From Nitrospiria bacterium (GTDB taxonomy: Bacteria; Nitrospirota; Nitrospiria; DASWJH01): a stretch of DNA of 47,103 nt. Shown here piece after piece: positions 16,683 to 21,951 of this stretch. The DNA lies in the NCBI GenBank assembly GCA_036397255.1, contig DASWJH010000054.1, forward strand, positions 1 to 47,103, read 5' to 3'. A program made the translations under genes and the position numbers. The notes under the pieces are model-generated. The model did no database searches. It was given only the letters and a program-made list of their open reading frames with translations, and was not told the DNA's origin. Within the stretch, counting starts at the first letter, position 1. Every line of letters starts with the position of its first letter.

Positions 16683-16711
16683 TTGACATTGATATTTGAA
16701 ATGGGTATTTT
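16683..16711 (+). promoter_or_regulatory. Sigma70-type promoter of the copper-binding surface protein gene
   Basis: A perfect TTGACA (16683-16688), a 17 bp spacer and TATTTT (16706-16711, four of six matches). Transcription would start near 16718 and give an untranslated leader of about 135 bases, which is long for a simple structural gene and contains the hairpin and palindrome listed next. Confidence 0.6.
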
Positions 16712-16853: not shown

Positions 16854-18095
16854 ATGAGAGAGGGGAAAAAAAGTCAAAAAGGAAAATTTGGCTTAATTCT
16901 TTGTTTGTTAGTTGTTGGAACTGCCATGATCTTTGCTCCGATGGATTCTGAAGCGGCGACCTTTAACGTGGCCGCAGGAAGCGCCGGGGGCCCTTTATCT
17001 TTTACCCCAAGCCCCGTTAATATTGCACCGGGGGATACAGTCCTATGGACTGTAGGAGGATCAGCGCCCCATACGATACAAAGCGGAAGCTCTTCCGGTG
17101 GAACATGCACTATTATTCCGGCCTTCAATTCAGGAAGTCTAAACGCTGGACAAACCTTTCAAAGAACCTTCCCCAGCGCCGGGGTTTGTAATTACCGTTG
17201 CCAACTCCATTTCGGGTTTATGGATGGGGTGGTCAACGTAGGTGCGGGAACAACAACCACCACAACAGGGGCAACTACCACCACGACCAGCGCCACCACA
17301 ACCACAACCACTCTTCCATCAGGAAATGGGGGGGATTCCTCCGATTCTGGTGATTTCAATAATAACGGTAATTTAGATCTTGTCGTGGCCGACAGCGTCA
17401 ATAATAACATCATTATTCTGTTGGGAGATGGAGCGGGGAATTTAAGCCTTCAGACCAGCATAGGCCGGCCGGTAGGTAGCGCTCCGATTTCTGTCAAGAC
17501 GGGTAGCTTTAACACGAATACCGATAATAATGATGATATCGTTGTAATCAACCAGGGTACTGACAATATTTCGATATTGTTGGGGAATGGAACCGGTGGG
17601 TTCAGTGAGCCGGGGGCGTCATCTCCCTTTACGGTGAACGGGATTACCGGATTAACCACTTTGGCCACTGGCCAATTTGACAATGACATCAGTAATTGTA
17701 TGGACCTTGCGGTCAGTACCACAGGAACCTCTGTGGTGCTGTCCGGTAATTGTAATGGGACCTTCCAAGGAACCACCGGCCCGACAACCACCACAACCAC
17801 AACAGGCGGGCCTACAACTACCACGGGAGCAACTACCACAACCAGCACCACCACGACCACCACAACCACCTCAACCTCAACCACAACTTCTACCACGACC
17901 ACGACGACCACAACCTCAACCACAACTTCTACCACGACCACGACGACCACCACTTCAACCACAACTTCTACCACGACCACGACGACCACCACTTCAACCA
18001 CAACTTCTACCACGACCACGACGACCACCACTTCAACCACAACTTCTACCACAACCACGACAACCACCACCACCACCACAACAACGGTTCCATAA
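16854..18095 (+). CDS. Exported cupredoxin/FG-GAP-like protein with threonine-rich repeat tail
   Basis: Secreted or surface protein. A Sec signal peptide (about 1-34) has a lysine-rich start, a leucine/valine core and probable cleavage after SEA. A cupredoxin domain (about 36-129) carries a full type-1 copper ligand set: His73 in APHTI, then Cys116, His119 and Met123 in CQLHFGFM. A threonine linker (133-153) leads to about three FG-GAP/VCBS-like repeats (167-305) such as DFNNNGNLDLVVAD and DNISILLGNGTGGF, with Ca-binding-like DxNxNGxxD. The last 100 residues are almost only Thr and Ser, ending in VP, with no sortase, autotransporter or TM anchor visible. The start has a strong AAGGGGAGAGAG site. 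It is monocistronic: its own promoter precedes it and a strong terminator follows. Role (electron transfer, copper binding or adhesion) is unknown. Confidence 0.85.
   Translation: MREGKKSQKGKFGLILCLLVVGTAMIFAPMDSEAATFNVAAGSAGGPLSFTPSPVNIAPGDTVLWTVGGSAPHTIQSGSSSGGTCTIIPAFNSGSLNAGQTFQRTFPSAGVCNYRCQLHFGFMDGVVNVGAGTTTTTTGATTTTTSATTTTTTLPSGNGGDSSDSGDFNNNGNLDLVVADSVNNNIIILLGDGAGNLSLQTSIGRPVGSAPISVKTGSFNTNTDNNDDIVVINQGTDNISILLGNGTGGFSEPGASSPFTVNGITGLTTLATGQFDNDISNCMDLAVSTTGTSVVLSGNCNGTFQGTTGPTTTTTTTGGPTTTTGATTTTSTTTTTTTTSTSTTTSTTTTTTTTSTTTSTTTTTTTTSTTTSTTTTTTTTSTTTSTTTTTTTTSTTTSTTTTTTTTTTTTTVP
17877..18071 (+). repeat. 39 bp tandem repeat, five copies, coding the Thr/Ser tail
   Basis: Units start at 17877, 17916, 17955, 17994 and 18033, each beginning TCAACCACAACTTCTACCAC. 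The middle copies are nearly identical at base level; the last diverges by a few G to A changes. Each codes for STTTSTTTTTTTT (13 residues), so gain or loss of a copy keeps the frame. Such arrays usually vary in number between strains. Confidence 0.9.
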
Positions 18096-18152
18096 AGGGA
18101 TTTTTGAAAATAACCAAAGTCTTCTCAATTAATCATTGAGAGTTCGAAAATG

Positions 18153-18191
18153 GAGCCCAGCTCTTCAAAGTGAGCTGGGCTCTTTATTTTT
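18153..18191 (+). terminator. Strong rho-independent terminator
   Basis: GAGCCCAGCTC (18153-18163) and GAGCTGGGCTC (18172-18182) form a perfect 11 bp stem with an eight-base loop, followed by TTTATTTTT. It closes the transcript of the surface protein 58 bases after its stop codon. Confidence 0.92.
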
Positions 18192-19224: not shown

Positions 19225-21951
19225 ATGACCGGGTCCGGTTGGGACAGGACATTCTCTTTTGGGTTTTTGAAAAAAGAACCGCTGATTGATCTCTCCTTCC
19301 TTCTGATTATTTTTGCCTTTCTATTTACTTACTTCGATCCAAAATTGCTTTTCCTGAAAACCATTGTAACCGGTGGTGACACCGCTTCCCATTATTATAC
19401 GGCACAGTATTTACGGGAAGAACTCCTGCCCAAAGGTAAAATAATTGGATGGTTGCCTGGGAATTATGCTGGGTTCCCCCTTTTTCAGTTTTATTTCCCC
19501 CTTCCTTTTGTTATCGCGGTTATACTGTCTCTTTTTGTATCCCTTGAGATTGCATTTAAAATAACCACTGTCCTGGGAATTTTTCTGCTCCCCATTTCCG
19601 CTTATTTTTCATTTAAGTTGATGAAATTTTCCTTTCCAATTCCCATTTTTGGGGCGTTGGTCACCCTGCCCTTCCTTTTTATGGAAGCCAATTCCATGTG
19701 GGGTGGAAATATTCTCAGTACGTTGGCCGGGGAGTTTTCCTATAGTCTGGGGTTTTCGCTCAGCATATTGTTTATCGGTTCAATGTATAACGGCATTAAA
19801 TCTCAACAACATGTGCTGAGAAATGCCATTTTAATAGCTCTGACGGGGTTTAGTCATGGCTATACCCTCCTTTTTGCTGGGTTGGCTTCTCTGTTTTTTT
19901 TGATTACGACCGAGAAATTTTTTAAAAAGTTAGGATATTTAATTAAAGTCCATTCATTGGGTTTTTGTTTAATGGGTTTATGGATTTTACCGTTACTCTT
20001 TAACCTGCCTAATACCACCCGTTATAATTTTGTATGGGTCATCAATTCCCTCTTTGAGGTTTTACCCGTCATCCTCATTCCTTTTGTTGTAATATCCGTT
20101 TCCGGGAGGTTGTTGGATTGGGGTTTTTTATTTTGGAGGTTGAAAGGTACCTCCCAATCCCTGAACCTCATTTTTCAATCCTTCATCGATAAAATGGACC
20201 TCAGAATCTATTATTTTTGGTTTTGTGTTTTGGTGGGTGCGGTTTTCTATTTAATTGCCTATCGGGTAAATGTAGTGGACATTCGGTTTTTACCTTTTTT
20301 GCAAATATTTTTGGTTCTCCTTGCTGCCATTGAATTTGGAAAATTCATACAGAGGTTAAGAGCCCCTTGGATTTTTGCCCCGGTTCTTCTAATTGCCATT
20401 TTATTGTGGGTGGACCACCATTCTGTAAAGGTTAAAGATTGGGTCAATTGGAATTATTCCGGATTCGAAAAAAAACACTCTTGGCCGGTATTCAACGGGA
20501 TTAACCAATTTATTGCGGGAGGTGTTTCTGATCCAAGAGTTGTCTATGAACATGCTTCGGCTCACAACAGCATGGGGACCCTTCGGGCTTTTGAATCGAT
20601 CCCTCTTTTTTCTGGACGTTCTACATTAGAGGGAATTTATATGCAGTCTTCGATTACGTCTCCCTTTGTTTTTTATATTCAATCGGAAATCTCAAAAGAA
20701 AAATCCTGCCCATTACCCGATTATGGTTGTTCAACGCTAAACCTGGAAAAGGGAATCGAGCACCTGAAACTATTTAATGTCAAAGATTTTATTGTTCGAA
20801 GTGAAGAGGTTAAATCCCAAATTAAAAAATACCCTGAGTTTTCTTTAAATAAAAGAATTGGGCAATATGAAATTTATGAATTAACCTCCAATGAAAACCG
20901 GTATGTGGTTTCCCTTTCGATTGAACCGGTTTTATATGAAACGAAAAAATGGAAAATGGTTTCCTATCGATGGTTCAAACAGTATGATTTGGATCATCCT
21001 CATTTAGTCTTCACTGATCAGGTTAACAAAAAACATTATCAGCACTTTCAAAATATTCTATATGACGGAGAAATAAACGGGTTACCCAAAACTCCGGTAC
21101 CGGGGCCTTGTGAGGTTGAAGAGAAAATTAAAAAAGAAGAAATTTTTTTTAAAACCACGTGTATTGGAAAGCCTCATCTGATCAAAATTTCGTACCATCC
21201 CAATTGGGAGGTAGAGGGGGCCTCTGAGGTATTTCTAATTTCCCCGTCTTTTATGTTAGTTTTCCCGGAACAAGAAAAGATTATTTTGCGATTTTCAAAC
21301 GGGTGGGTGGAGCGAACGGGGATTTTTCTTACTGGGATTGGCCTAATTTTTTCAATGCTCAGTATTCCCTTGTTAAAGGAAAGCCGTTTCAATAAAAGAT
21401 TTCAGAGTTGCCTGGGGGAAGGCCAAACCGGTTTTTTACATTTCCTGCAGAGTTTTGCTTTTATCCAGGCCTTTTCCAAGGTCATAGAACACCATAAATG
21501 GAAGGTTTTTTTCTCGATCTGTTTTGTTCTGATTTTGGGGGTGACCGGTTTTGTTTTGCAATCTAAGGTGGCGGATCCCAATATTTTATACACACGGGGT
21601 TTGAGTTCTTATAATAAAGAGAATTTTGGAGAAGCACGGTCTTTATTTGAACAGATCATCCAAGCGTATCCCGAAACATCAACCGCCCAAAGCGCGAGGT
21701 ACTATTATGCAATCACCTTTTTTAAAGAAAACCAATATCCTCGGACGATTGTTGAATTTGAGAATTTAATCAAGAACTATCCTGAGAGCCATTGGGTTCC
21801 CGAGGCGTTGTATCATATCGGGCTTTGTCATTCACGCCTGAACCGTTGGGAAGAGGCGGAAGATGTTTATCAAAGAATTATTCGCGATTTTCCCGCTAGT
21901 CCCTGGGTGACACATGCACAGCAGCGGTTGGCTGAAAAGGGAACCCGCTAA
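19225..21951 (+). CDS. Large polytopic membrane protein (PTPS-related/YfhO-like) with C-terminal TPR domain
   Basis: 908 residues. About 11-13 hydrophobic segments fill the first 400 residues. The first periplasmic loop contains GGDTASHYYTAQYLREELL and GWLPGNYAGFPLFQFYFP, the signature of the 6-pyruvoyl-tetrahydropterin synthase-related membrane family (despite the name, GT-C-like polytopic proteins). A soluble periplasmic domain (about 410-690) with a WHxxW-like region (ISYHPNWEVEG) resembles YfhO/DUF2298-type proteins. Two more TM segments follow, and the last 125 residues are TPRs of the BamD/YbgF type (YTRGLSSYNKENFGEARSLF, YYYAITFFKENQYPRTIVEF, YHIGLCHSRLNRWEEAEDVY). An acidic GGD in the first loop fits a GT-C glycosyltransferase. 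A role in lipid-linked sugar transfer is inferred. The start at 19225 has only a weak ribosome site. Confidence 0.72.
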   Translation: MTGSGWDRTFSFGFLKKEPLIDLSFLLIIFAFLFTYFDPKLLFLKTIVTGGDTASHYYTAQYLREELLPKGKIIGWLPGNYAGFPLFQFYFPLPFVIAVILSLFVSLEIAFKITTVLGIFLLPISAYFSFKLMKFSFPIPIFGALVTLPFLFMEANSMWGGNILSTLAGEFSYSLGFSLSILFIGSMYNGIKSQQHVLRNAILIALTGFSHGYTLLFAGLASLFFLITTEKFFKKLGYLIKVHSLGFCLMGLWILPLLFNLPNTTRYNFVWVINSLFEVLPVILIPFVVISVSGRLLDWGFLFWRLKGTSQSLNLIFQSFIDKMDLRIYYFWFCVLVGAVFYLIAYRVNVVDIRFLPFLQIFLVLLAAIEFGKFIQRLRAPWIFAPVLLIAILLWVDHHSVKVKDWVNWNYSGFEKKHSWPVFNGINQFIAGGVSDPRVVYEHASAHNSMGTLRAFESIPLFSGRSTLEGIYMQSSITSPFVFYIQSEISKEKSCPLPDYGCSTLNLEKGIEHLKLFNVKDFIVRSEEVKSQIKKYPEFSLNKRIGQYEIYELTSNENRYVVSLSIEPVLYETKKWKMVSYRWFKQYDLDHPHLVFTDQVNKKHYQHFQNILYDGEINGLPKTPVPGPCEVEEKIKKEEIFFKTTCIGKPHLIKISYHPNWEVEGASEVFLISPSFMLVFPEQEKIILRFSNGWVERTGIFLTGIGLIFSMLSIPLLKESRFNKRFQSCLGEGQTGFLHFLQSFAFIQAFSKVIEHHKWKVFFSICFVLILGVTGFVLQSKVADPNILYTRGLSSYNKENFGEARSLFEQIIQAYPETSTAQSARYYYAITFFKENQYPRTIVEFENLIKNYPESHWVPEALYHIGLCHSRLNRWEEAEDVYQRIIRDFPASPWVTHAQQRLAEKGTR

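Follow-up and report, generated by a model that had tools for sequence, protein, structure and literature searches.

A predicted exported protein of a Nitrospiria lineage that joins a cupredoxin domain, a partial FG-GAP propeller and a threonine-rich tail

Why would a bacterium place a type-1 copper site, a piece of an integrin-type propeller and a long threonine-rich tail on one polypeptide? The question is raised by a single gene in the window, a stretch of 47,103 nucleotides of Nitrospiria DNA. The open reading frame runs on the + strand from the ATG at 16854 to the TAA at 18095, encodes 413 amino acids and is immediately preceded by the ribosome-binding-like stretch AGGGGAGAG. Across the same interval, the two remaining forward frames contain 14 and 24 stops. 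Could the frame be an artefact, or the front part of a longer gene truncated by a late stop? The first possibility was rejected given the open frame, the ribosome-binding-like site, the terminator and the in-frame domain matches, and the second given the strong terminator directly after the frame. The fusion is confirmed as a genuine open reading frame with a coherent architecture.

The gene on the 5' side is divergent and encodes a flippase-like membrane protein. The genes on the 3' side, beyond the terminator, encode a protein that matches CARDB below threshold, a membrane protein of the PTPS_related/TPR kind and a glycosyltransferase. None of the adjoining genes encodes a redox partner, and the cupredoxin/FG-GAP gene is probably transcribed alone. 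The PTPS_related membrane protein (19225-21951, + strand) has C-terminal TPR/YbgF-like repeats and is followed by the glycosyltransferase, a member of family 2; these two neighbours might have a role in glycan assembly.

Table 1. Features of the cupredoxin/FG-GAP gene and its flanks, in window coordinates.
Feature	Position	Strand	Basis
Sigma-70-like promoter candidate, TTGACA-N17-TATTTT	16683..16711	+	Consensus scan, 10/12 matches; weak, number of hits not clearly greater than in shuffles
Signal peptide, residues 1-35	16854..16958	+	Translation MREGKKSQKGKFGLILCLLVVGTAMIFAPMDSEAA, read by eye
Cupredoxin (type-1 copper) domain, residues 36-132	16959..17249	+	Pfam PF00127, PDB match, AlphaFold, Foldseek, ligands
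Thr-rich linker, residues 133-157	17250..17324	+	Thr 17/25
Three FG-GAP (integrin-type propeller) repeats, residues 158-309	17325..17780	+	Pfam PF13517, AlphaFold, Foldseek
Thr/Ser tail, residues 310-413	17781..18092	+	84 Thr and 12 Ser among 104 residues
Tandem DNA repeat encoding most of the tail	17850..18082	+	Tandem Repeats Finder score 351, period 39/78 bp, 91-93% matches
Intrinsic terminator, 12-bp stem and T run	18152..18183	+	

From the N-terminus, the protein is ordered as signal peptide, cupredoxin, Thr linker, FG-GAP segment and Thr/Ser tail (Table 1). By eye, the N-terminus resembles a cleavable signal peptide, with predicted cleavage near A34/A35. A lipoprotein reading was considered and rejected, as Cys17 lies inside the hydrophobic core and no lipobox is visible around it. 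Inspection by eye found no membrane anchor, no LPXTG-type or other sorting sequence and no lipobox, and the protein ends in TTTVP-stop, the free end of its tail. These features point to a protein that would reside in the periplasm or be secreted.

Is the copper site complete? Pfam Copper-bind (PF00127) matches residues 39-129 (E 1.4e-6, 29.1 bits against a gathering score of 21.2), and the type-1 ligands follow in the expected order as H73, C116, H119 and M123, exactly the residues named in an earlier note on this DNA. All four are invariant across 24 aligned sequences, comprising the window domain and 23 relatives from named genomes. The top PDB sequence match of the domain is 5fc9, the purple cupredoxin of Nitrosopumilus maritimus (E 9e-10), with plastocyanins next. 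An AlphaFold model that took the 24-sequence alignment as input (pLDDT 89, pTM 0.83) and its Foldseek matches to plastocyanins, 5fc9, pseudoazurins and amicyanins (query TM about 0.7-0.8) predict a cupredoxin beta-sandwich for residues 36-132. The earlier claim that an exported polypeptide carries a complete type-1 copper site is therefore upheld by family search, PDB match, fold and ligands, and the structure prediction that it had proposed as a check recovered the cupredoxin fold. The site is predicted from these sequence features to be loaded with copper.

Which kind of cupredoxin is it? The domain shares its fold, its length and the order of the four ligands with the plastocyanin/azurin family (PF00127), including 5fc9 (TM 0.78-0.81), and differs in being fused to further domains. 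Its ligand loop is Cys-x2-His-x3-Met. In the Cys-His-Met spacing, plastocyanin has x4 and amicyanin x2, and by these lengths the window loop is one residue shorter than the former and one residue longer than the latter. Bit scores against the NCBIfam models for plastocyanin (31.5, cut-off 87.9), halocyanin (31.4, cut-off 93.8) and amicyanin (22.3, cut-off 110.2) all fall far under the cut-offs, which makes the domain a cupredoxin yet places it outside these three groups. Its loop recurs in eight stand-alone cupredoxins from another family (f8) of the same class, together with a pair of extra cysteines, Cys85 and Cys112, which could form a disulfide in the window domain. These eight are single-domain proteins in open frames of 126-166 aa without FG-GAP repeats or a Thr tract; most have, by eye, a lipobox-like Cys.

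The one complete type-1 site has the His2-Cys-Met arrangement of electron carriers, and the domain is predicted on this basis to transfer electrons. Might the protein instead bind copper, or store it and confer tolerance? The site is exported and no redox partner is encoded nearby, as such a role would allow. However, the one site present is of the electron-carrier type, and Met- or His-rich copper-binding stretches are absent elsewhere from a protein that contains two His and five Met in its whole 413 residues; we consider a storage or tolerance role quite improbable.

The FG-GAP segment was described in the earlier note as about three Ca-binding-like repeats, and this description stands: FG-GAP_3 (PF13517) matches three stretches (E 6.7e-8, 33.5 bits against a cut-off of 26.9), and Ca-loop-like motifs of the form [DN]x[DN]x[DNS][GN]xxD lie at residues 167, 220 and 276. 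Judged by these motifs, the loops may bind calcium. The first repeat starts part-way, immediately after the Thr linker, and the third contains Cys282 and Cys300. The AlphaFold model of the segment (pLDDT 78) was made from a shallow alignment of 13 rows, for which viral-contig relatives were used and FG-GAP paralogues of the same genome left out. Foldseek aligns it to lectin and integrin propellers with seven blades, covering a minor part of each target (TMt mostly 0.1-0.3).

Can three repeats form a propeller? A strict motif count gives 4-8 repeats in 24 of the 25 open frames of other FG-GAP proteins that do not run off their locus, the exception (L109) having three; degenerate repeats escape this count, and the distances between hits point to about seven blades in most relatives. 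Three FG-GAP proteins of the same genome (L002, L004, L005) and one of the class (L117) belong to the same repeat family, with roughly 34-47% identity over 1-3 repeats, but carry about 7-8 repeats across some 300+ residues. With three repeats in about 150 residues, the window segment lacks the seven blades that close a propeller and, compared with its relatives, cannot close one alone. The modelled segment would need a partner or an oligomer, or would be a spacer or remnant. A separate FG-GAP protein of 1414 aa, lipoprotein-like (L041, G000:C79), adjoins a TPR membrane protein resembling a GT-C glycosyltransferase, and its contig also carries PMT_2 matches.

Does the protein stand on the cell surface? 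The earlier note had envisaged a copper-binding adhesin or surface electron carrier held off the cell on a mucin-like stalk; in this reading the tail would be fixed within or to the outer membrane. The Thr/Ser tract is mucin-like in composition and the FG-GAP repeats are integrin-like, but the end of the tail is free, with no lipobox, C-terminal anchor or sorting signal, and three blades are insufficient for an integrin-like binding propeller. Surface display, adhesion and a stalk thus find no footing in the protein, and we regard such a role as improbable.

What, then, is the tail? It had been called a threonine-only tail of about 100 residues; its length of 104 residues bears this out, while the composition was slightly overstated, as Thr makes up 81% of residues 310-413 and 12 residues are Ser. 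Its DNA is a tandem array, from which the length of the tract is expected to change. Thr/Ser tracts of 12 codons occupy 219 overlapping positions in the whole genome against 0 with a reversed-pattern control, a count far above chance. The 12-codon search, a 12-Thr pattern and a query with the tail itself together placed the tracts in five genes, namely the window gene and four that encode further exported proteins. One of these (C62) is lipoprotein-like and unrelated to the window protein but has the same TTTVP-stop ending, another (C73) ends in a Thr/Ser tail, and in the remaining two (C38, C26) the tract sits between domains or close to the end. Of the 197 class genomes sampled, only 3 contain pure 12-Thr tracts. 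With tracts on five genes of this genome, the Thr tract is a habit of the lineage and is not peculiar to the copper protein. One of the three genomes (G022), from another family of the class, encodes an exported protein (L161) in which a Thr/Ser tract roughly 250 residues long precedes Ig-like-looking domains.

Judging by their composition, the Thr spacers are probably O-glycosylated; we know of no described system for Thr-tract glycosylation in the phylum Nitrospirota. This genome has PMT-type families, but so do most control genomes, which makes them unspecific. A precedent for the spacer role exists in Caldicellulosiruptor bescii, where deletion of a GT39 glycosyltransferase gene abolishes glycosylation of exported enzymes with Thr/Pro linkers and CelA is cleaved far more (PMC6151902).

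Is the combination found elsewhere? The domain search suggested in the earlier note detected Copper-bind and FG-GAP_3 in the window protein, but no second protein with the same architecture turned up in 270 class genomes or in a 396-genome sample of the phylum, relatives being compared at class level or wider. Cupredoxin queries against the phylum sample returned stand-alone domains or other fusions and no second cupredoxin with FG-GAP repeats. A query that covered the cupredoxin and continued as far as the first FG-GAP repeat gave no other match reaching FG-GAP in the 270 class genomes. A separate pattern search with the cupredoxin used an alignment of four sequences, one of ten being too diverse. 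The joined cupredoxin and FG-GAP query found no relative among 85,000 species genomes or in viral contigs, in scans that reach close relatives only, and plasmid matches were limited to haloarchaeal halocyanin-like proteins. Text searches of an open-access library gave no relevant paper on cupredoxins or plastocyanins with FG-GAP, on plastocyanins with threonine-rich parts, or on FG-GAP with threonine-rich parts. Each module is known; their combination in one protein is apparently unique. The earlier note had reckoned that domains lying on separate proteins in all relatives would tell against its reading, and among the relatives found in the class and the phylum they are separate without exception. 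This indicates that the fusion is private to this one Nitrospiria lineage as far as sampled, and does not make the open reading frame an artefact.

Several mosaics come close in layout. An exported Nitrospirota protein (L210) combines a YNCE-like propeller with a cupredoxin and differs in its propeller family and in having no Thr tail; its existence suggests that a propeller plus a cupredoxin is a workable layout. Another exported Nitrospirota mosaic (L211) joins a cupredoxin to cytochrome c, and thus to a haem domain, again without a Thr tail, and a third Nitrospirota protein (L017) has a related cupredoxin domain in what is, by eye, a multicopper-oxidase-like context. BNR-like repeats occur with a weak cupredoxin-like domain in L094. 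In a protein of Dehalococcoidia (L134), a long low-complexity stretch rich in Thr comes after the cupredoxin, as in the window protein, but this Thr/Ala/Pro tract lies between domains, ahead of CHRD and a C-terminal membrane segment (by eye), and FG-GAP repeats are missing.

Could a fusion this rare be a degenerate chimera? Repetitive Thr-codon DNA, present in several genes, may have driven a recombination that joined an FG-GAP fragment and a Thr tract to the end of a cupredoxin, as passengers with little function. This would account for a three-blade FG-GAP segment that begins in mid-repeat right after the Thr linker, for tail DNA that is a tandem array with an ending common to the unrelated C62 lipoprotein, and for a fusion unique among the genomes searched. 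However, the nearest paralogue of the FG-GAP piece in its own genome reaches about 40% identity at best, and the lack of a close one implies that the fusion is not recent. Moreover, 413 codons have stayed open where the alternative forward frames are rich in stops, and all three Ca-loop motifs are retained. We consider a degenerate chimera possible but rather unlikely.

We prefer, with moderate confidence, to read the protein as an exported single-gene mosaic of a type-1 copper electron-transfer module, a partial FG-GAP docking or spacer domain and Thr spacers. The copper domain would be the working part and would shuttle electrons outside the cytoplasm. The Thr-rich linker would join it to the three-blade FG-GAP segment, probably a Ca-stabilised domain for docking or spacing, and the Thr/Ser tail would be an unstructured, protease-resistant spacer, probably O-glycosylated. 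This reading is favoured by Copper-bind and FG-GAP_3 matches above curated cut-offs, invariant ligands and a confident cupredoxin model, and by the cupredoxins of the phylum that are joined to redox modules, cytochrome c in L211 and the multicopper-oxidase-like part of L017. It is also favoured by the four other exported proteins of the genome with Thr/Ser tails or linkers; the Caldicellulosiruptor bescii precedent (PMC6151902) applies to the spacer role. Counting against the reading are the position of the gene between a divergent neighbour and a terminator, with no redox partner gene adjoining, the scores far under the plastocyanin, halocyanin and amicyanin cut-offs, and the ability of single-copper cupredoxins to bind or handle copper instead of transferring electrons. 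A bolder proposal extends this mosaic. The Thr/Ser tract would be a glycosylated, interchangeable and expandable C-terminal module shared by several exported proteins (the window protein, C54, with C62 and C73, and near the end or as a linker in C38 and C26), and the cupredoxin/FG-GAP protein an extracellular electron carrier that forms an oligomer of mutually completing partial propellers. We hold this to be very improbable.

What would such a protein mean for the biology of the Nitrospirota? If expressed, it would represent a rare case of an exported electron-transfer domain sharing one polypeptide with a partial integrin-like propeller and a mucin-like tail. The copper mosaics of the phylum would gain a further member, and studies of Thr-tract glycosylation a test protein. 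Its parts are familiar, and the gain would be one of architecture rather than a novel type of system.
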